From a virus: a DNA stretch of 32,022 bases. The notes under the pieces were generated by a model. It was not told the origin of the DNA and did no database searches. It was given only the letters and a program-made list of their open reading frames with translations. The stretch is from positions 1 through 32,022 of the IMG/VR virus record IMGVR_UViG_3300023170_000108; one strand, written 5' to 3'. How positions within the stretch are numbered: the first letter of the stretch is position 1; every line of letters begins with the position of its first letter. Below are positions 683 through 28,000 of the stretch, in pieces. Both the position numbers and the translations under genes were made by a program.

Positions 683-1516
683 CTAGCAAGCAATATCAAA
701 TTCCTTGAAGTCACTTGCGGTTACTACAGGAGGAGTTACCTTGCGGTAGTTCTTCTCAACGTAGTCGGCGCGGGCCTGGAGAGAACGCTTCACTTCGTAA
801 TCGAAATAATAACTTGGTTCTTTCCATCCAGCAATCTTACGACACTCGATGTTGACTTGACGCCAAAGGGCAGCGTCACTGGATGCAGCGAGCATCTTGT
901 CTTGAGCAGTGAGCATAGACTCGGACAGCTGCGACTCGTTCTGCTCCCTGTTGAGACGAGAGAAGTACGAATACTTGGCGATACCACGCTGTACCAGTGC
1001 AGACTGCGTAATTGAATTGACACTGGACACGACATTGTAGGCGTTGGATGTCTCGGTAAGGATCACACGATAGCTGTCAATGATTGCCTTGAGCTTGTCT
1101 TTATCAATCATCTTAGCCATAGCCTCTAAATCTTTAGCTGAGTAATCGCAATAGCTAACAACACCCTTGATGGTTACTGCGTTGGGGCGTAAGTGATACT
1201 TGCCATCTGACCAAGCGCTACCCCACACGTTGTGGCGAGACAGCTCGTAATCGTTGAATACCCAGAACGGGAAGTCCTGATTGGTGAGTACGGTGTTGCG
1301 CTCGTCAGCACCTTCTGGATCTGCGATGGTGTCGGGGCGATCATCGTCAAGAGATGACTCCATCTTGTACTCCATTGCTGGCTCCTCAACTGCGTTGCGG
1401 TCGAATACTTCGTTGGTACGGTTTACTTTAGACATAGTTGCTACTCCATTAGTAGTGGTTGGTGAATCGATTGTTGCTTCTAGCTTTGTTATCTCGTCAG
1501 CAAGATCTAGTTGCAT
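683..1516 (-). CDS. Hypothetical phage protein, 277 residues
   Basis: This is the longest leftward gene. The ATG at 1516 is preceded by AGGAG (tagGAGAGCTAGA context on the coding strand), a good ribosome binding site. The protein has an acidic, low-complexity first 75 residues and then a mixed region with aromatic clusters (residues 85-125) and a predicted helical middle. It has no signal peptide, membrane segment or catalytic motif that I can name. Its start overlaps the end of the 42-residue gene by 10 bases. Downstream there is a structured gap and a terminator. Because it sits among small early-type genes away from the structural block, a non-structural role is more likely, but this is inference. 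Confidence 0.8.
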   Translation of the reverse strand: MQLDLADEITKLEATIDSPTTTNGVATMSKVNRTNEVFDRNAVEEPAMEYKMESSLDDDRPDTIADPEGADERNTVLTNQDFPFWVFNDYELSRHNVWGSAWSDGKYHLRPNAVTIKGVVSYCDYSAKDLEAMAKMIDKDKLKAIIDSYRVILTETSNAYNVVSSVNSITQSALVQRGIAKYSYFSRLNREQNESQLSESMLTAQDKMLAASSDAALWRQVNIECRKIAGWKEPSYYFDYEVKRSLQARADYVEKNYRKVTPPVVTASDFKEFDIAC

Positions 1517-1635
1517 TCTAGCTCTCCTAGTTCAAGGTAATCATTGATAGTTGATAGGTATGTATCGGTATTTGATTCGTAATCAAACTCAATTGCTAAC
1601 TGCCAGTTGTCAGATACTAAATAAACTTCAGACAT
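1507..1635 (-). CDS. Small hypothetical protein, 42 residues
   Basis: The ATG at 1633-1635 is preceded by GTGAGGAAC, a good ribosome binding site, and the frame runs 42 codons to TAG at 1507-1509. The peptide begins MSEVYLVSDNWQLAIEFDY and ends LELGELECN; it is acidic and has no membrane segment. It overlaps the 277-residue gene by 10 bases, and the ribosome binding site of that gene lies inside it, which suggests coupled translation. Function unknown. It is the first gene leftward of the GTGTACC repeat array. Confidence 0.6.
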   Translation of the reverse strand: MSEVYLVSDNWQLAIEFDYESNTDTYLSTINDYLELGELECN

Positions 1636-1674
1636 ATGTTCCTCACTATAAGTGTGAAATCCATTGTTGGTTGC

Positions 1675-1715
1675 CAATCCTTTCCTAGGATTGTGTATTT
1701 TTTGATCAAATACAC
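1675..1715. repeat. Two abutting inverted repeats upstream of the 42-residue gene
   Basis: CAATCC (1675-1680) pairs with GGATTG (1688-1693) around a 7-base loop. Sharing base 1693, GTGTATTT (1693-1700) pairs with AAATACAC (1708-1715), again around 7 bases. The pair lies 40-80 bases upstream of the leftward 42-residue gene, in a position where an operator or leader structure would sit. The GTGTA core resembles the nearby repeat array. Confidence 0.4.
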
Positions 1716-1781
1716 TTACAAACCCGACTAAAAGCGAGCGTTAGCGAGCGTAAGGTATTGAAAAGTCTACTGAAAGTAGAT

Positions 1782-2061
1782 GTGTACCATGTGTACCGGG
1801 TGTGTACCGGGTAAAAAGGGGGATGTGGTACACAATTTCTTGTTATTTATCAGTTATTTATATTAATGTGTACCATGTGTACCACCAAAACAATAAAAAT
1901 AAGACCTAAAAAACAGGCATGTATATTTTTTTGTTTCTGTAAGTATGTCCAAAAGACATGGTACACGTGGTACACGCGGTACACATAACTGTAAGTTGTT
2001 GAATGTTAAGGGTTAAATGTGTACCGGGTAGATGATTTTACATGGTACACATGTGGTACAC
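1782..2061. repeat. Twelve-copy GTGTACC/GGTACAC array, candidate iterons or operators
   Basis: Exact GTGTACC starts at 1782, 1791, 1802, 1868, 1877 and 2019. Its exact reverse complement GGTACAC starts at 1827, 1960, 1969, 1978, 2044 and 2055. Neighbours on the same strand are spaced 9 or 11 bases, about one helical turn. The copies form three convergent groups: three forward then one reverse, two forward then three reverse, one forward then two reverse. In the first and third groups, the inner forward and reverse copies are both separated by exactly 18 bases that begin GGGTA. AT-rich stretches lie between groups (1834-1867, 1890-1950). This matches the look of an iteron-type origin or a multi-site operator. 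No coding frame covers it. Confidence 0.75.
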
Positions 2062-2076
2062 ATTGAAAATGTATGG

Positions 2077-2211
2077 TTATCTACCCGTGGCCGCGAGACA
2101 GTTGTCATTTGCCAGTTGTTTTTTAACATGCTTACGGTTGGCTTTGTTGACACGCCGTTTAGTGTAAGCCCGTAAGTGTTTTGCATACTCTTTACAGCCC
2201 CTCTTTGACAT
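2077..2211 (-). CDS. Small basic protein, 44 residues
   Basis: The ATG at 2209-2211 follows AAGAGGTG at good spacing, and the frame runs 44 codons to TAA at 2077-2079. The peptide (starts MSKRGCKEYAKHLRAYTKRR) is strongly basic and probably helical, which fits a nucleic-acid-binding or host-takeover peptide, but no family is recognised. The gene ends 16 bases before the GTGTACC array, so on the leftward strand it is directly upstream of it. It lies downstream of a terminator at 2386-2413, so it must have its own promoter in 2212-2385 or depend on read-through. Confidence 0.6.
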   Translation of the reverse strand: MSKRGCKEYAKHLRAYTKRRVNKANRKHVKKQLANDNCLAATGR

Positions 2212-2285
2212 TTAACACCTCTTAGTTGATAAGGTTTAGCTGTTACTTGGCACTTGACCTTTGTTAGTTAGCAGTTACTAACTAT

Positions 2286-2319
2286 CAGGTGACAATTATC
2301 AGTTGTTAATTGCCACCTG
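2286..2319 (-). promoter_or_regulatory. 13-bp inverted repeat in the leader of the 44-residue gene
   Basis: Arm 2286-2298 pairs with 2307-2319 around an 8-base loop. Read as leftward RNA every position pairs (one G-U); read on the plus strand the same position is an A-C mismatch. That asymmetry points to a leftward RNA hairpin rather than a protein-binding palindrome. No T tract follows, so it is not a terminator. The surrounding 2212-2385 gap otherwise holds only AT-rich heptamers and no gene that I can support. Confidence 0.4.
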
Positions 2320-2385
2320 GCGTCCGTGGGGGCACACAAAGCTCGCGTCAGTGGCACACTTATGCACATCCCCCAGCGCCCTTAG

Positions 2386-2413
2386 AAAAAATCGCGAGGG
2401 CCGAAGCCCCCGC
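2386..2413 (-). terminator. Intrinsic terminator with UUCG tetraloop, leftward
   Basis: On the leftward strand the stem GCGGGGGC/GCCCTCGC (8 bp, one G-U) is capped by TTCG, and GATTTTTT follows. It ends the transcript carrying the 74- and 32-residue genes. A strong ribosome binding site and ATG (2417-2419) lie only four bases before the stem, opening a 19-codon frame through the hairpin. Confidence 0.85.
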
Positions 2414-2429
2414 TTGCATGTGTATCTCC

Positions 2430-2528
2430 TTAACCTAGTAGTGCCATATAAACAGGGATGCAAGCCAGTAATGCTACCCAAACAAGCGCCCAACCTACGA
2501 TTTCAATAACCTTACAAAGTGTATTCAT
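2430..2528 (-). CDS. Small membrane protein, 32 residues
   Basis: The ATG at 2526-2528 is preceded by CAAGGAGTTCTAAT, a strong ribosome binding site, and the frame runs 32 codons to TAA at 2430-2432. The peptide is almost entirely hydrophobic: after MNTLCKVIEI comes a segment rich in V, W, A, L and I ending near residue 31, consistent with one membrane-spanning helix. It lies between the 74-residue gene and a terminator. It could be a small membrane effector, but position and length alone do not tell. Confidence 0.55.
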   Translation of the reverse strand: MNTLCKVIEIVGWALVWVALLACIPVYMALLG

Positions 2529-2577
2529 ATTAGAACTCCTTGACCCCTGACAGTTGCCAAGGGTCAATTGATAGTTG

Positions 2578-2802
2578 TTAGTTAATAGATTCTGCTATCT
2601 CTTCGACATCGCCATCGATATCAACGATTGCTATGGTAAGTGCAAGCATGAATGCATCGCTTGGGTTCTCCTTCACCCAGTTAATCGTATTCCCGAATGC
2701 GCCTTTGGCATCGGCTAGTAAAGCGCCAGCTGTTTTCTTAGCCTTGTTGATGCGGCGGGTTCTCTTTGCTTTCTGTGCTTTAGTACTTTTGAGTTTGAGC
2801 AT
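2578..2802 (-). CDS. Small hypothetical protein, 74 residues
   Basis: The ATG at 2802 is preceded by CAGGAGTTAGCA, a good ribosome binding site. The first 27 residues are lysine/arginine-rich (begins MLKLKSTKAQKAKRTRR), followed by an alanine-rich stretch, an amphipathic region around 'NWVKENPSDAFMLALTIAIV' (residues 42-60), and an acidic tail. The middle could associate with membrane or form a helical bundle. No family is recognised. It is the first gene of the leftward block after the divergent region. Confidence 0.65.
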   Translation of the reverse strand: MLKLKSTKAQKAKRTRRINKAKKTAGALLADAKGAFGNTINWVKENPSDAFMLALTIAIVDIDGDVEEIAESIN

Positions 2803-3120
2803 TGCTAACTCCTGTTAGTTAATAGTTGATAGTTGTTAAGTTAGTAACTCCTACTAACTTATTAATACATCCGACTTGCGAGCGAGCGTAGCGAGCGAGC
2901 TATGAATGGTTAGCTAATATCTAACAGTCGCCGGTCTGATTTTGAAACAAGGTTCCAATTGGTAAATCGAAAACAAGGTTCCAAAAAGGTAAAAAGGGGA
3001 AACGGGGCGGCAAACTAGCGAGAGGGGTATGTACTGAGTGAGCAATTTAGCCCACTGTTTTCAAAAAAATTTTCCCAAAAAATTTTTATAAATCATTTTT
3101 TTACGTTATTGTTCTGACCC
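2803..3120. promoter_or_regulatory. Divergent intergenic region between leftward and rightward blocks
   Basis: This 318-base gap has no supported gene. From left to right it holds AT-rich heptamers ahead of the 74-residue gene (2812-2860), a GCGAGCG-repeat element (2878-2900), a 14-base direct repeat AAACAAGGTTCCAA at 2945-2958 and 2971-2984, a purine-rich run (2985-3010), and A/T tracts (3062-3103) just before the HNH gene. Promoters for both directions are expected here, but I find no convincing -35/-10 pair on either strand. Confidence 0.45.
2945..2984. repeat. 14-base direct repeat, 26-base period
   Basis: AAACAAGGTTCCAA occurs at 2945-2958 and again at 2971-2984. Both are followed by a GGTAAA-like sequence a few bases later. 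The 26-base period (about 2.5 turns) and position in the divergent gap suggest a regulatory binding site. Confidence 0.5.
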
Positions 3121-3591
3121 ATGACTGAAAAACGAACTTGTAAAATCTGCAAAAAGTCGCTACCTAGCACTCAATACTCGATGCGAGAGGGCTATCTGTC
3201 GCTAACATGTAACAAATGCTCTCAGCGACAACGCAACATACGAATCAGTGCTACCCCCGACTCTTACCTCCGTGTTGTATTTAATAGTGCTAAGCACCAA
3301 GCAACTTCTGGGAAGCGCAAGAAAGACTGGACCTTAGAGGTAGAAGATATCTTTGAGATATGGGCTAAGCAGGAGGGCAAGTGCGCTTTATCGGGCGTAC
3401 TGATGACTTACGCAAGGGACGGGCAGGGCAGCAAAGATCTGAATGTATCCATTGATCGTATTGACCCAACGCTAGGATATGTTACTGGCAACGTACAGTT
3501 GGTGTCTTATCGAGTAAATCTTATGAAGCACACCCTGACGGAAGACGTTTTTTTCTGGTGGGTCAGAAATTTATATAATTTTTCTTGCTAG
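3121..3591 (+). CDS. HNH endonuclease with N-terminal zinc ribbon
   Basis: A 156-residue protein. Residues 7-33 carry CxxC...CxxC (C7, C10, C30, C33), a probable zinc ribbon. Residues 88-136 form an HNH-type core: C88-A-L-S-G, then SIDRID at 110-115, GYVTGNV at 119-125, and N133/K136. In this subfamily the first catalytic histidine position is taken by the D of SIDRID; this pattern is common in phage HNH proteins. HNH nucleases beside terminase genes often assist DNA packaging or cleavage; a homing-type nuclease is the alternative. There is no clear ribosome binding site before the ATG. It is the first gene of the rightward block. Confidence 0.85.
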   Translation: MTEKRTCKICKKSLPSTQYSMREGYLSLTCNKCSQRQRNIRISATPDSYLRVVFNSAKHQATSGKRKKDWTLEVEDIFEIWAKQEGKCALSGVLMTYARDGQGSKDLNVSIDRIDPTLGYVTGNVQLVSYRVNLMKHTLTEDVFFWWVRNLYNFSC

Positions 3592-3619: not shown

Positions 3620-3910
3620 ATGAGTAATGTCGAAGTATTGTGCCTGTCGGGACTAGAGCATGCAATTGTCGGTTATCAAGTGACAGCTGACAAGAATGCA
3701 GGGTTAGTTTACGACTACGAAAAGACAGTTACGGAGTTACAAGACCGAGGTTATGACGAAGAAGAGATCGAAGAATTCTTTGAAAACATACGAATGCTGC
3801 CTTTTCCGGGGCCATTGCCTATTTTTGTTAAGGTAGACTCAACATTAGGTGGTGCTGTTGCTGAAACAAAACCCATTATCCACGATGACCGAGACCCAAC
3901 CTACCACTGA
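3620..3910 (+). CDS. Small conserved-looking phage protein, 96 residues
   Basis: An acidic protein with 'LEHAIVGYQVTADKNAGLVYDYEK' near the N-terminus (residues 12-35), a helix with 'DEEEIEEFFENI' (47-58), and 'GPLPIFVKVD' (64-73). This order resembles a family of about 90-residue phage proteins of unknown function, in which a tyrosine-containing strand, an acidic helix and a 'TPIF/W' strand follow each other. The ribosome binding site is weak. Its 3' end overlaps the preferred terminase small subunit start by 26 bases. Confidence 0.7.
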   Translation: MSNVEVLCLSGLEHAIVGYQVTADKNAGLVYDYEKTVTELQDRGYDEEEIEEFFENIRMLPFPGPLPIFVKVDSTLGGAVAETKPIIHDDRDPTYH

Positions 3911-4412
3911 GGGGCTTATGCCCAGCAGTGAGTTCCAATCCCATATGCCTTATGCAGGGCTACAGCACAATGCGCTCACGATTCAGCAAGAAAAGTTTGT
4001 CCAATACGTGTCATCTGGCATGACATACGCGGCAGCTGCCAGGGCATCGGGGTATACAAACCCCGAAAGAGCCTATGAGTTGGTAAAAAATCCCAAAATA
4101 GCGCAGGCCATCGACTATTTTCGTGCCCAGATGCGTGAAGAGGTCAAATTCAACGTAGTAAACGCCCATTCTATGTACATGGATGCCTACGCGCAGTCGG
4201 CAACTGCTACTGAAATGAAGAATACGGTGGATTCGCTAGTAAAATTGCACGGTTTGGCCAAAGACAACCAGCCACAAACGCAGGTTAACGTGCAGATTAA
4301 CAATATTAAACAGCTTGAGCGCCTGACTGACGAAGAATTGCTCAAGATTGTTGGTAAGGATATGCAGTACTTAGAGCCAGTTGCGGATGGAGATACCGAA
4401 GAGGCAGTGTAA
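3885..4412 (+). CDS. terS: Terminase small subunit
   Basis: A 175-residue protein from the ATG at 3885 (start MTETQPTTEG). Residues 30-60 contain a helix-turn-helix with 'LTIQQEKFVQYVSSGMTYAAAARASGY', and then 'NPKIAQAIDYFRAQM', the pattern of small terminase subunits that recognise the packaging site. The C-terminal part has 'LERLTDEELLKIVG' (about residues 145-160), typical of the oligomerisation or large-subunit contact region. A GTG at 3849 in the same frame would add 12 residues, but these do not look like coding sequence of the family. It overlaps the upstream gene, and its end overlaps the start of terL. Confidence 0.85.
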   Translation: MTETQPTTEGLMPSSEFQSHMPYAGLQHNALTIQQEKFVQYVSSGMTYAAAARASGYTNPERAYELVKNPKIAQAIDYFRAQMREEVKFNVVNAHSMYMDAYAQSATATEMKNTVDSLVKLHGLAKDNQPQTQVNVQINNIKQLERLTDEELLKIVGKDMQYLEPVADGDTEEAV

Positions 4413-6003
4413 GAGCTGTAAAAATGTCCACCCTGAGACATTAGTCAGCGATTACGGTGTATGTGTGTACTGCAAAGCGGCAGAGGCTGAGGCTCCCCCT
4501 GAGAAAAAGGAGGAAAAGTCTGACCCTAACGAGTTAGCCCGTGCTGAATTAGCGGCTAGGGTGCTAACTCGTAAGCGCATGTTACCGTTTGTAGAGCGGT
4601 TTAACCCAGATTATATCGCGGGTTGGGTACACAAAGACATTTGTAGGCGTTTAGAGCAGTTTTCAAAGGATGTGGTGGACAAAAAGTCGCCCCGATTGAT
4701 GCTTTTTATGCCGCCACGGCACGGGAAGTCCACACTAGCTAGTGTATCTTTCCCAGCTTGGCATTTGGGACGTAACCCGGATCACGAGTTTATTAGCTGT
4801 TCGTACTCTGGCAGCTTGGCCATGACATTTAGCCGTAAGGTTCGTAACTTACTGCGTGAGCCGAGCTATAAGACAACTTTCAAGACTCGGTTAGACCCTG
4901 AGTCCCAGAGTGCTGAGGCGTGGCTGACCTCTGTTGGTGGTGGTTTTGTTGCGGCTGGTGTCGGCGGCGGTATTACGGGTAAGGGCGCTCACGTTTTGGT
5001 GATCGATGACCCCGTAAAGAACCGCGAAGACGCAGAGTCACAGCATAACCGTGACGCCACATGGGATTGGTACACCTCAACGGCTTATACCCGCCTAGCT
5101 CCAGGCGGCGGGGTGTTAGTTATTTTAACCCGTTGGCATGACGATGATCTTGCTGGCCGGTTGTTAGCTAACGAGGCCGCAGGTGACGAGTGGGAGGTAG
5201 TGCGCTACCCGGCTATTGCCGAAGAAGACGAAGAGTTCCGCAGCTTAGGTGAGCCGCTGCATGGCGAGCGCTACGATCTTGAAGCGCTAGAGCGTATTCG
5301 CAAGGCGGTAGGGCCGCGTGATTGGTCTGCTCTTTACCAGCAGAACCCTGTTGCTGAAGATGGTGACTACTTCAGCCGGACGATGGTTAATTACTACAAG
5401 CCGGAAGATATTGCTAATCACGGCATGCGTTTTTACTGCGCTTGGGACTTGGCAATTGGCAAGCGGGACCGTAACGACTATTCCGTGGGAATGGTTGTTG
5501 GTGTCGATGAGTATGACAGGATCTATGTAATGGATGTTGTCAGGGGTCGTTTCGATGGTTTTGAGCTAGTCGAAAAGATTCTTGACCTTTACGAGATGTG
5601 GAAGCCCTCTATCATAGGGATAGAGAAGGGCCATATAGAAATGGCGCTTGGTCCGTTCCTAGAGAAGCGTGTCCGAGAACGCGGGCTTTACGAAGCCTAC
5701 TTTAAGGATCTTAAGACAGGGCGAAGAGATAAGGAAGCTAGGGCGAGGGCCATCCAGGGTCGTATGCAGCAGGGGATGGTGTTTATCCCGGAGAATGCTG
5801 CTTATACTGAGTCCTTAGTTTCAGAACTATTGCGTTTTCCTAACGGGACGCATGATGACCAAGTAGATGCTTTGGCATGGATAGGTTTGATGATGACAGA
5901 ATTTGCGGTCTATCAAACGCCAATAGAGCATGTTCCTTCATGGCGGGATCGACTTATGTTCCTGGCCAAAGGGAACCGTAAAAAATCAGCGATGAGTGCA
6001 TGA
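4387..6003 (+). CDS. terL: Terminase large subunit (packaging ATPase and nuclease)
   Basis: From the ATG at 4387 the protein has 538 residues; a TTG six bases upstream is the alternative. An N-terminal CxxC...CxxC zinc ribbon (C8, C11, C26, C29) is followed by the ATPase with Walker A PPRHGKS (109-115) and Walker B VLVIDD (203-208), where the second D leads into the coupling region. The RNase H-like nuclease starts at AWDLAIGKRDRNDYS with the first catalytic Asp at 354, an 'IEKG' strand (E413), and HDDQVDA (489-495) as the last acidic cluster. It powers DNA translocation through the portal and cuts the concatemer. The gene follows terS with overlap and ends two bases before the portal ATG at 6005. 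Confidence 0.95.
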   Translation: MEIPKRQCKSCKNVHPETLVSDYGVCVYCKAAEAEAPPEKKEEKSDPNELARAELAARVLTRKRMLPFVERFNPDYIAGWVHKDICRRLEQFSKDVVDKKSPRLMLFMPPRHGKSTLASVSFPAWHLGRNPDHEFISCSYSGSLAMTFSRKVRNLLREPSYKTTFKTRLDPESQSAEAWLTSVGGGFVAAGVGGGITGKGAHVLVIDDPVKNREDAESQHNRDATWDWYTSTAYTRLAPGGGVLVILTRWHDDDLAGRLLANEAAGDEWEVVRYPAIAEEDEEFRSLGEPLHGERYDLEALERIRKAVGPRDWSALYQQNPVAEDGDYFSRTMVNYYKPEDIANHGMRFYCAWDLAIGKRDRNDYSVGMVVGVDEYDRIYVMDVVRGRFDGFELVEKILDLYEMWKPSIIGIEKGHIEMALGPFLEKRVRERGLYEAYFKDLKTGRRDKEARARAIQGRMQQGMVFIPENAAYTESLVSELLRFPNGTHDDQVDALAWIGLMMTEFAVYQTPIEHVPSWRDRLMFLAKGNRKKSAMSA

Positions 6004-16723: not shown

Positions 16724-19700
16724 TGGCATCTTCTCAAGACGCAATAGTTCAAGCTTTTCTTCTAAATAACTCAGAAAAGCAGCAGGCGCAACAGAATCTT
16801 GAAACCGCTTTTCAGGATTTTCAGGAGCGCCCAATTACAGATCGCCCTTCTGGGAGTTACGGCGAAGATTTTGTACGTGGTGCAAACCAAGGTCTTAATG
16901 CTCTTTCCGCAGATTTAGAATATTTTAAGGCATTAGGGAATACCTTAATAGGTCGAGAAGAAGCTGCTGAAGCTAACATTGAAGCCGCAGAGCTAGACAC
17001 TAGAGAGTCTGAGTTTGCTGTTCAGGGTATGGAGACTTTCGAACAGTTCATAAACGAGCCGACAATAGATGGCTTTTTTAGCCAAGTTTTTTCTGGACTT
17101 GGTCAAGTTTCTCCCTTCTTAGTTGAGACTGTAGCTACTGCTATGGTTGGCGGTGTAGCTGGTGTTGGTGCTAAAGCCGTAATGACAGCCGGTGAGAAAG
17201 CGGTTGCTAAAAAGCTTATAAAAGAGACTTTGCAGAAAAAAGCAGAGGGGAAAGTTCTCGATGCTACTGAAGATGCCGTGCTCCAAGGTGCGTATAGTAC
17301 TCTCAGGGCGAATCGCTTTGGGACAGGTATGGATACAGGAGCAAAGGTGGGCGCAGTGGGCGGCACTTATCCTATAAACACTGGTGAGAGTTTTAAGGAG
17401 TTTGATGAAGCTGGGGTCGATTTAGACATAGATAGAGCTGTTCAATCTGTTCTTTTAGGCGGTGTTTCTACTGCGGTTGAAGTAGGCGGCGAGTCTTTAT
17501 TTCTTAAAAACTTAGCAAGCTTAGCGAAAAGAAAAGCTGACCCGACTAACCCAAGTAGCCTTTTAAATCTGTTTGCTAATAATGTAGGGCGCGGGGCGGC
17601 TAAAGGTTTTGCGCTTGAAGGTGTTACTGAAACCACTCAAGAAGGGCTGCTTGTTGCGCAGCGTATGTCTGTTGATGACAACTATAGCTCCGATGAAGCC
17701 TTCCTTCGACTTGGCCAAGCTGCTTTTCTAGGGGCCATAGCAGGCGGCGCACCAGGTGGTGTCGGCGGGGCTATTGCTACAGCACCAGAAGCTGTTTCTC
17801 GCGTGTTTGATAAGGCCAATGACTTAGCAAAGAAAGCTCGCGATGGCCAAGTATCCGCTGAGGTTGATAACGAGGTCTTTGGCGATATCAATTCTATATA
17901 TACAACTCCAGAGCCAGAAGCAGACATACAAGCGCAGTTTGATGCGATGTTCGATCCTGACTCAGCTAAGAACGCTGTCTGGATTGCGGGCAGGCAGGAG
18001 AAAGCTGGTCCTGTAGATATAAACGGCAGAACTGCTTACGCCGCGTCTGTAAAAGGTCGAGGCACTATCTACTCCACTGACCCAGAGATCGTAAACAATG
18101 TCGCAAGGCAGAATGCCTCTGACGAGTCTTTGGCCGAAGCTCTCGGCTACAGTGCTCCTAAGTCTGCGCAGAACCCTGGAGACTTAGTTGTACAAGCTCT
18201 AGACAAGAACGGACGAGTCATCTCAGAGGAAGTTACAGACCAAGCAGGGCTTGAGATGGCTACTGCTGCCGCTACTGAGATAGCTGGTCGTACAGGCTCT
18301 ATAAAGACTGTTAGCGTTGAACAAGCACTAGCTGATAGAAAAGCTAGGAAGGGTCCAACCATCCGTAGCATGGAAATCGATGATGATGTAGACATGCAAA
18401 TGGATGATATAGACCCTAATGAACAGTCCATGACAGACCCTAACGAGATGGTCACTGTAGAAGATCAAGCAGTAGACCTGAAGAATCTCCTAGATAAGAA
18501 GAACAAAAATCGATACAAAAGACGGCAAAATCCTACAGATACTTATGAGTCTACTGCGGAAGCTAGGCAGAGATATCAAGAGGTTGTATCGCCTAGAAAG
18601 TATATTGATTGGAACCGCAGTAAAGAAGGCTTCTTGAGTGACGCTATTCTTAAGGAAGCGGTCAGGATACAAGAACAAAACCCCGATGTAATTGTTGATG
18701 TTGACTTCAATCCTGATGGTACTCACTCTATTACTGCGACAGCTGCCCCTACACAGCAGCTTTATACTATCCAAGATAGAGGCGGCAGACAGAGGAAAGT
18801 GACTCTGGAAGCGTTTGTGGGCGAAAGTGTTGCGGCAGCTAGGGCTAGTAAGTTTGCGTCCCCAAGTACTAGACTTATAGACACTAACTCTGGCGAAGTC
18901 TTCAACATTAACTTATCCGACATAGTTAACGCAGGGAAAAGAATAAACGAAGCTGAGATTACTGGTTCATTTGAGGGAGTAACGGATGCAGAGGGTGCGC
19001 AAGCCGGGCTTACTGCCATGATGGCGGCTTTGGCCGAAAGAGGCTATGTGCTGGAAGTTGATGGTGCCCCAATACAAGACAGAAGTAGAAAAAAGGGTGA
19101 AGCAGGTAAGCTACCTGACTCTTATAAAAATATTGTTGCGGATGCTGGTACTAATGTTAGTTTGTTTGATGCCTTAACTGCTAGTGTACCTCGTTCAACC
19201 TCTGGCGCAGATATCTCAAATAGATCAATAGAAGAACAAGCCGCTAGGGAAGATAGCAGGTCAAACCCAACGGAGTATTACGAGAAAACTCTTGAAGACA
19301 GTAAAACGCCACTAAGTTCTCTTAACATACAAGATGGCGCTTTGGGGTTTGAAGCGAGAGACAGGATAGACGTAGTTTTCCCGATTTCACCAGACAGTTC
19401 TAAAAAGACTAGGGCCAGAGAGTTTTTCCCTACTGCTGTTAAACAAGTTCTTTCTAATGAAGTTAAAAGGATGCGCCTCAAGAAGGCCGTGTCTTTTTAT
19501 GCACTGTCTGACTTAATGAATGAGGATGTAGATGGCGTTCAAGATCCTTTAGATACTCTGTTTAGCGATACTGCTGTGCGGAACAAAGTGCGCGATGTAC
19601 TTTATGGTAACCCAGATACGGGGATGCAAAGCCTTATAGATAGCACTACTAGCTATGGTGTTCACATGGGGTTTGCCGATGCCCATGTAATCATATTGAA

Positions 19701-25089: not shown

Positions 25090-28000
25090 ATGGCTATAAA
25101 GTTTGCTAACAATGCTACTACTACATTGGTATCGGGGATCACTTCTTCTGAGACATCTATCAGTGTAGCGGATAGCAGTGCTTTCCCGGTACTGGGTGCG
25201 GGCGACTACACCTACGTTACCTTTGACGACAAAGCTGGTACTAGAGAGGTAGTTAGGGTAACAGCGATATCAAGTAATACTTTTACTGTTGTCCGAGGCC
25301 AGGATGGCACTAGCGCAGCAAGCTTTAGTTCTGGTGACCAAGTAGAGCTTAGGCTCACTGCCGCATTGCTAAATGATATAGCCGGTTCGGAGAGTATTGA
25401 TGACCGAGTAGCTCAACTTCTCCAAGCCGGTTCTGGCATTACACTTTCTTATGATGATGTCAGTAACGAACTGACAATCGATTCTGATCATATTGCATAT
25501 GACGCCACCAATAGCACTGGTTCATCTATAGCAAAAGGTACTCCGGTTTATCAAACAGGAAGCAGTGGTAATACCATAACAATCGCTCCAGCAGATGCAG
25601 ATGGATCTGGTACTATGCCAGCCATTGGTATGACTTCTGAGACGATTGCGGCTGGTAGCACTGGTAAAGTTACTTTCTTGGGCCTGGTAAGTGGATTTGA
25701 CACATCCGCATTCTCTGAAGGTGCTACTCTTTACATATCTGCTACAGCAGGCAGTCTGACAGAAACTAAACCAACAGCAGAATCTGCTTTGGTGCAGAAC
25801 TTCTGCAAAGTTGTCAAATCTCACGCATCAAATGGCTCAGTAGTAGTTATGGGTGCTGGCAGATCAAATGACACACCCAATCTCGGGGATGGCAAAATAT
25901 TCATAGGCAATGGAACTGATGCTTATGAGCAACGCACTCCAGTTGTTGGTGATATTTCTGACCTGACAGCAACAGCTACAGAACTGAACTACAGCGATGG
26001 TGTTACTTCCAACATTCAGACTCAGCTTGATAGCAAAGCTCCTTTAGCCTCTCCTAGCTTTACTGGTGACGTTACAATATCTGGAAGCCTAACAACAGAA
26101 GGCGCAGATGGCGGCGCATTTATAGGAACCTGGCCAAATAATTCAAATTTTGTAGCATTCGGCACTGCCAATATGACAGGTACCGAATATGCGCTTATTA
26201 CAGACGGAAACAACACGTATCTTGGGGCTGGAACTGGAGGTACCACATTCGTTAGGGGACCGGCTAATGATTCTAGTCCTCAAATATACGTGAATTCAAC
26301 TAACGTATTTGTAGATAATGGACCTCTAGTAGTTAGTCAGTCAGGAAGTGCACAGCTTAGACTAGATGCTGAAACAGCAGACAAAGCTGACTGGAGAATT
26401 TTGGCACAAGATGGTGCAACATATGGAACTCTAAAAATACAGAACTATGCCGGAGCTACTTGGGGGGATGAGCTAACCCTGCAGAGTAACGGGGTTGCTA
26501 CCTTTGCTGGTGATGTTACAGTTACCGGCGACTTAACTGTCAGCGGAACAACTAGTGTTCCTGGCCTGACAACGACAGCAGACATTAACTTTGGCGACAA
26601 TGATAAGGCTGTATTCGGTGCTGGCTCTGACCTACAGATTTACCATGATGGTAACAATAGTTACATTAATGACGCTGGTACAGGTGACTTAATTATTTAC
26701 GGTGCAAATTTGCGTTTAGGCGCGGCTGGTACCGGTGAGCAGTTCTTAAGAGCATATTCAAATGATCGTGTCGATATTTACTACGACAACTCAGTAAAAC
26801 TCGCCACAGCCTCTACAGGCATTAACGTAACAGGAAATATTGCAGTTACCGGAACCGTAGACGGACGCGATCTTGCTACGGATGGAACTAAACTTGACGG
26901 TATTGAGTCTGGTGCTACAGCAGATCAGACAGCATCTGAGATTCTCACGGCTATTAAGACTGTGGATGGAGCAGGAAGCGGGCTAGACGCTGATTTACTA
27001 GACGGTCAGCAAGGCAGCTATTACACGGGGTATACTGACACTGCGATTGCTAACCTGGTAGACTCCGCCCCTACAACGTTGGACACTTTGAATGAATTAG
27101 CTGCTGCTTTGGGAGATGACCCTAATTTTGCTACTACTGTGACTAACTCCATAGGAACGAAAGTATCAAAGTCTGGCGATACCATAACTAGCGGCACAAG
27201 CATCGGATTAACAATCAATCACGATACTTTTGGTCAAGGATTGGTCATTCATCGGAATGATAGCGCCAACGCAGCTAGTGTAGTTTTCAAGAATAATGCC
27301 TTACAGCAGGGCATTTTGTTTGGAAATAACTCTGGAGCAATTAACTGGCGCCCTCTCAGCGGCACTACTAATTATGAGATTTGGCACGAAGGCAACGATG
27401 GCTCTGGTTCTGGATTAGATGCTGATACTGTTGATGGTATTCAAGCTTCTAGTTTCTTACGTAGTGATGCTAATGACACTTTTACTGGGATTATTACTGG
27501 AAATACTTTAAAACTTGGTGGAAGCGAAATTGCTTCAAGTGCTGCAAAACTCCAAGTTAATGGCTTTCAGCGAACCGGTAATATATTACTTCACGAAGGC
27601 GGTAATACTCCAACAGCCAACAACAAAGTATTAGGTAACACCTCTGGTAATCTTGAATGGGATGGGAATAAAGTCTGGCATGCTGGAAACGATGGTACAG
27701 GTTCAGGGCTAGACGCTGACCTTCTTGATGGTCAGGAAGGCTCATACTATGCCGCCGCTTCCAGTTTAAATAGTTATCTTCCTCTCACTGGGGGAACTCT
27801 TAGTGGCAATCTTTCGATAGATAAAGGCACGGCAGGCGATGCCACCTTAACAATAAGAGCAGATACTGATAATAATGACGAAGGTGATCATCCCTCAATT
27901 CGTCTTAAGCAGGATGGTGATTTAGTAGATTGGCGTATTGGTATTGGCGAAAAAGACGCAGATACTTCTGGGTATGCTAATGATTTAGTATTTAAGCATC

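Follow-up and report, generated by a model that had tools for sequence, protein, structure and literature searches.

Why does a phage carry twelve copies of one heptamer, GTGTACC or its reverse complement GGTACAC, within an intergenic stretch of only 280 bp, and which protein reads them? We addressed this for a DNA stretch of 32,022 nucleotides (referred to as the window), a complete IMG/VR record that represents one fragment of a phage. The original prediction had regarded the repeats as a candidate origin, resembling iterons with an unwinding element, or alternatively as an operator array.

Architecture of the repeat array

All twelve copies are exact and were found between positions 1782 and 2061 as predicted, and the site spacings, the spacers and the long-range pairing noted at that time proved correct as well. 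The complete record contains 15 copies compared to an expectation of 2.7, and the three outside the array (at 4626, 5069 and 19184) show that the heptamer is not dense elsewhere, which had been named as a possible refutation. The occurrence of at least twelve copies in 280 bp has a probability of about 6e-29 (Poisson estimate), so the claim that chance would not produce them holds.

If > denotes GTGTACC and < denotes GGTACAC, and distances are counted from start to start, the layout is >9>11>25<41>9>83<9<9<41>25<11<. It is approximately mirror-symmetric around position 1922 with one additional 9-bp repeat; the two halves are not identical, this repeat having been added at a differing place. 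Sites on the same strand are 9 or 11 bp apart. The inverted pairs 1802/1827 and 2019/2044 each enclose an 18-bp spacer starting with GGGTA, and positions 1868-1883 and 1960-1975 are inverted copies of each other that can pair over 16 bp with one G-T. The features of the array and its surroundings are the following:

683-1516, minus strand: gene of a conserved 277-aa protein found only in the window's clade; in the leftward early operon it is the long gene that comes first
1782-1833, both strands: left outer iteron group, sites at 1782, 1791 and 1802 (plus) and 1827 (minus); related arrays have counterpart outer groups
1848-1860, plus strand: IHF-like box TATCAGTTATTTA, one mismatch to WATCAANNNNTTR, a possible bending site; related arrays have perfect boxes
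1868-1883, plus strand: left inner iteron pair, sites at 1868 and 1877, 9 bp apart
1884-1959, no strand: AT-rich core, the presumed melting site
1960-1984, minus strand: right inner iteron group, sites at 1960, 1969 and 1978, 9 bp apart
1992-2004, minus strand: IHF-like box ATTCAACAACTTA, one mismatch, symmetric to the box at 1848-1860, with the same possible role
2019-2061, both strands: right outer iteron group, sites at 2019 (plus), 2044 and 2055 (minus)
3121-3591, plus strand: endonuclease VII/HNH-like gene, with which the rightward late module begins
3849-4412: TerS gene, following the endonuclease VII/HNH-like gene
4381-6003: TerL gene, following TerS

Short iterons clustered in both orientations far above chance are a feature of SF3-type iteron origins, and the array shows it. 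The core between the convergent inner groups spans 76 bp; its AT content is 74%, that of the whole record 54%, and the best 30-bp segment of the core ranks in the top 1% of the flanks. Two iteron sets on either side of such a core correspond to the layout of the P4 crr and PICI-type origins.

Other signals were sought in the same region. No DnaA box (TTWTNCACA) lies inside the array, the closest consensus match being at 2360 and the total number at chance level, and Rfam gave no match. Terminator-like sites number three compared to 1.4 expected. The minimum of the cumulative GC skew coincides with the array in a single contig (G006), and the skew is confounded with the direction of transcription. 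Two similar GAGCG-rich repeats, AGCGAGCGTTAGCGAGCG at 1733-1757 and GCGAGCGAGCGTAGCGAGCGAGC at 2876-2901, flank the array region on both sides, and the intergenic stretch 2200-2870 contains many short GTTAGTTGATAGTTGTTA-like repeats.

The IHF-like boxes are another element of the array. The two one-mismatch boxes of the window sit symmetrically, 7 bp outward of the inner iteron groups. Perfect consensus boxes occur 16 times in 27 arrays compared to 0.5 expected and at most three in 200 shuffles, a count which overstates independence as the 27 arrays are mutually related. They sit within the spacers that separate the iteron groups, most of them at a distance of about 3 bp to an iteron. IHF may bend the DNA of the array.

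Occurrence in other genomes

The 16-mer GTGTACCATGTGTACC matches 52 viral DNA stretches, most of them with an array of about 8-12 sites and related geometry. In dozens of IMG/VR contigs the inner pairs, with sites 9 bp apart, face each other across approximately 76-117 bp and the outer groups follow at a distance of about 41-65 bp. All eight long contigs with an array possess exactly one per genome. The carriers belong mainly to two groups, the window's clade and a separate, unrelated group of prophages. In addition, a genome scan revealed the array at two loci of alphaproteobacteria, in each case closely 3' of a large gene, which is of the VapE/DUF5906 type in one of them. A DNA similarity search with the array and the L128 region against the phage collection yielded no match, and a literature search for GTGTACC in connection with phages gave unrelated matches only. 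GTGTACC clusters of other geometry (e.g. <9<23>9>36>10>10>10>) were observed in L104, L129 and L114, and no relative of the SF3 helicase was found in the sequence searched for these three.

In the window's clade the array lies between two gene modules. Rightward follow the endonuclease VII-like gene, TerS, TerL, a P22-type portal gene and a capsid gene; the closest TerL among cultivated phages is that of phiA008 (51% identity), followed by Pam1 and KPP25 (about 41%). The leftward early operon can be traced on a contig with 99.9% identity over 11.5 kb (L009, also G001) that extends beyond the left end of the window. It extends as far as the genes of DNA polymerase A, of a helicase-primase of 828 aa (DUF5906, SF3) and of a PD-(D/E)XK nuclease. 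The helicase-primase gene is located outside the window (L009:16128-18614), at a distance to the array of 6.4 kb in L009 and about 10-14 kb in G006 and G007. In the PICI arrangement the array lies directly 3' of the helicase gene; as this is not so in L009, we class it as a variant and not as a PICI-type origin.

The prophages show the direct arrangement: the array lies 18-22 bp 3' of a Zn-ribbon/Toprim/DUF5906 primase-helicase gene. In the prophages L118, L133 and L140 versus L098, the Zn-ribbon/Toprim part and the SF3 helicase form two adjacent ORFs in some and a fused 915-aa protein in others. An all-against-all BLASTP comparison of the long contigs identified the SF3 helicase as the replication protein common to both groups; TerL, DNA polymerase and the 277-aa protein were not shared in this comparison. 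Further matches across the groups were a gene of about 333-380 aa in G006 similar to a gene at the prophage ends, a protein of about 150 aa in G007, and TerS in G009 over 32 residues only.

Absence of the array from close relatives that keep the flanking genes had been stated as a second possible refutation. We found an array at the same place in these relatives, with the same or a related motif. Where TerL is 75-80% identical the array lies about 2-3.5 kb before TerL and is composed of other words, such as CTGCACA, GACACA, TGTCACA, GTCCACA and GGTGCAC, with xxxCACA motifs among them.

To see how far this association reaches, we collected 80 viral loci with relatives of the prophage-type primase, of which 39 remained after dereplication. 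When the strongest 7-mer cluster was located in each of them, its centre fell 83-194 bp beyond the primase stop codon, on the 3' side, in 35 of the 39 loci, compared to 2.2 loci expected in that interval under uniform placement. About 20 different motifs make up these clusters. Seven named phages (NrS-1, Lodos, S1, PG1, H4907, Mcat1 and Mcat9) were examined without a presupposed motif, and each of the seven has a short-word cluster directly 3' of its primase gene, the words differing between phages. The common template is kept, e.g. in Lodos with the layout >9>11>19<46>9>100<9<56>11>20>. No array was found in the distant relatives phiA008 and KPP25, the helicases of which show about 30% identity. 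KPP25 contains 17 copies of CAGCCCA within 350 bp (L142 14864-15340), which overlap annotated genes and are not obviously an origin.

The helicase-primase as candidate reader of the iterons

Which protein could bind the repeats? The original prediction had pointed to products encoded near the array, and these candidates fell away on comparison. None of the relatives examined possesses a homologue of the 44-residue ORF, and the clade-specific 277-residue protein is absent from the prophages with the same array. A 56-aa protein, considered in addition, has no homologues or only some in the window's clade. No Rep_3/RepA-type initiator was detected among the genes scanned, a scan that covered part of the small ORFs. 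The likely binder is instead the 828-aa helicase-primase.

This protein matches the structure of the NrS-1 polymerase (6k9c, E 6e-26). The AlphaFold model of its C-terminus displays a winged-helix topology (pLDDT 78 overall). A Foldseek search with this C-terminal model returned no significant match, the best being Cdc6/Orc1 initiators on origin DNA (E 0.13). The C-termini of the window-type and the prophage-type helicase are connected by a weak profile match (E 1e-4, probability 57), and the model of the prophage-type C-terminus is poor (pLDDT 49). From the modelled topology together with the covariation described below, the 828-aa SF3 helicase encoded on L009 probably carries a DNA-binding winged helix at its C-terminus. 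The SaPI Rep and Cch2 proteins read their iterons through the C-terminal domain (PMC7581432).

In the wider family the iteron words mostly have the start TGT in common, while the bases that follow vary. Across 33 primases, winged-helix identity goes along with similarity at three variable bases of the iteron (r 0.43), with registers set by hand and loci of unclear register excluded. After subtraction of helicase-core identity the correlation is 0.33, and none of 2000 permutations, which ignore the tree, was as high. If the winged helix is removed instead, the correlation of iteron similarity with the helicase core is −0.08. Within the window's clade no simple difference in the winged helix was seen between the GTGTACC phages and those with other motifs.

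A probable replication origin and its relation to known systems

Taken together, the array is very probably the replication origin of this phage, with the SF3 (DUF5906) helicase-primase as predicted iteron binder, probably by means of its C-terminal winged helix. The part of the original prediction that proposed iterons with an unwinding element is thereby supported by comparative evidence.

Several other functions could be ascribed to such an array. A cooperatively binding repressor or activator might govern the leftward early operon from it, as the array is intergenic and upstream of the leftward genes, and twelve sites could allow cooperative repression. In the prophages and the named phages, however, the array is located 3' of a gene and outside its promoter region; promoter-like sites are at chance level in 1400-3200 and none lies inside the array, and no regulator is common to the two motif-bearing groups. 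We consider a purely regulatory array improbable. An operator role additional to that of an origin is possible, as the initiator may autoregulate, but this half of the original prediction gained no positive support of its own. Slightly less probable still is a cos- or pac-type packaging site for the small terminase subunit. The order of genes invites this idea, since in the window's clade the genes for endonuclease VII, TerS and TerL come after the array, and late genes follow in many of the primase phages, too. Yet the arrays of H4907 and Lodos abut the primase, with several lysis genes and over 2 kb between them and TerS, the prophages that carry the identical motif lack a counterpart of the window's TerL, the motifs differ among phages with 75-80% identical TerL, and the iteron bases vary in step with the winged helix of the primase. 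Since the array tracks the primase rather than TerS, and since P4, for which no terminase gene is annotated, carries equivalent iterons labelled as replication repeats, a terminase site is unlikely.

Centromeres can have repeat arrays of such a size, and a partition site of a phage-plasmid bound by a ParB-like protein would fit in this respect. We regard it as a remote explanation, as neither the annotated genes nor the families common to the array groups include a ParA- or ParB-like one, and the covariation is with the winged helix of the helicase. The arm-like repeats and IHF-like boxes also recall a lambda-type attP with arm-type integrase sites. In Mcat9, however, attL (1-22) and attR (33556-33577) enclose the array, which lies inside the prophage at 26658-26863; it is therefore not split by integration, which excludes an attP for the homologous arrays. 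Furthermore the annotated attP arm repeats of P4 differ in sequence from its crr iterons, and no integrase was found among the window genes scanned, leaving hardly any likelihood for an attachment site.

As a replication origin the array could act in the following way. The helicase-primase produced from the leftward early operon would attach with its C-terminal winged helix to convergent sets of GTGTACC iterons and assemble on either side of the 76-bp AT-rich core. IHF might bend the DNA at its putative boxes and bring the outer iteron groups into the same complexes. The core would then melt, and helicases could be loaded in both directions and unwind outward, whereupon the primase and DNA polymerase A of the phage would begin synthesis.

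The evidence is evenly balanced on whether all these arrays represent one origin class in a large, mostly uncultured set of phages, with dyad-like iteron groups around an AT-rich core, partly with IHF-like boxes, and a word (TGT-xxx-GGGT and relatives) rewritten in step with residues of the winged helix. If so, origin specificity could be read from the protein, e.g. with the residues REHK going with TGTGCAGGGT, and RED/REE-K with TGTGAAGGGT or TGTGATGGGT, and the arrays suggest a modular and predictable protein-DNA code. The origins of most environmental phages are unknown, and for those with an SF3 helicase-primase a simple locating rule can be offered: the origin should coincide with the most pronounced cluster of short repeats, to be sought 3' of the primase or, in the window's clade, at the early/late junction.

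The kind of origin is already known from P4 crr, PICIs and SaPIs. In the part of the literature that was searched, the following appear to be new: the conserved layout with interchangeable words in full-size phages, the displacement of the array in the uncultured clade to which the window belongs, the presence of IHF-like boxes, and a winged helix that covaries with the iteron. The P4 alpha initiator binds its repeats via a winged-helix domain (PMC4234260). In P4 crr we found 8-mers (TGTTCACC) spaced by 9 bp, no farther than about 320 bp from alpha on its 3' side. Like P4 crr and ori1, the window has short iterons of 8 bp that occur in both orientations (TGTTCACC, i.e. GGTGAACA, compared to GGTACACA in the window) at a spacing of 9 bp. 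The sites of P4 are divided between crr, directly 3' of the helicase-primase gene, and ori1, which is not adjacent, whereas the window has all of them in one dyad-like array; its phage also encodes a DNA polymerase A of its own, and its helicase-primase has another architecture.

NrS-1 has the PrimPol that is the nearest solved structure to the window-type helicase. For this polymerase an 8-nt recognition site, TTTGGTTA, has been published and proposed as origin (PMC7102993, PMC8718748). We found a (G)GTTACAC array directly 3' of its gene (L148 17061-17260), and the published site, at 17198, falls within this array, which may be the true origin. NrS-1 differs from the window in its iteron, the presence of an integrase and a PrimPol regarded as the replicative polymerase. 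Plasmid origins of the RepA/RepE type likewise have repeated initiator sites beside an AT-rich region; for the phage of the window, by contrast, the presumed initiator is an SF3 helicase-primase, and the array is devoid of a DnaA box.

PICI origins consist of two iteron sets on either side of an AT-rich region, 3' of rep (PMC6092414), and in SaPIs and PICIs the sets are read by the C-terminal domain of a self-loading helicase encoded by the element (PMC6092414, PMC7581432). The window shows the same two sets around its core, together with additional outer iteron groups and IHF-like boxes. PICIs are satellites whose origin follows rep directly on its 3' side, whereas here a full-size phage has its array 6-14 kb from the helicase gene. 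The PICI arrangement was said to exist in no other known bacterial replicon (PMC6092414); our comparison extends it to full-size phages, and this bears on how satellites and phages gained their replication modules.
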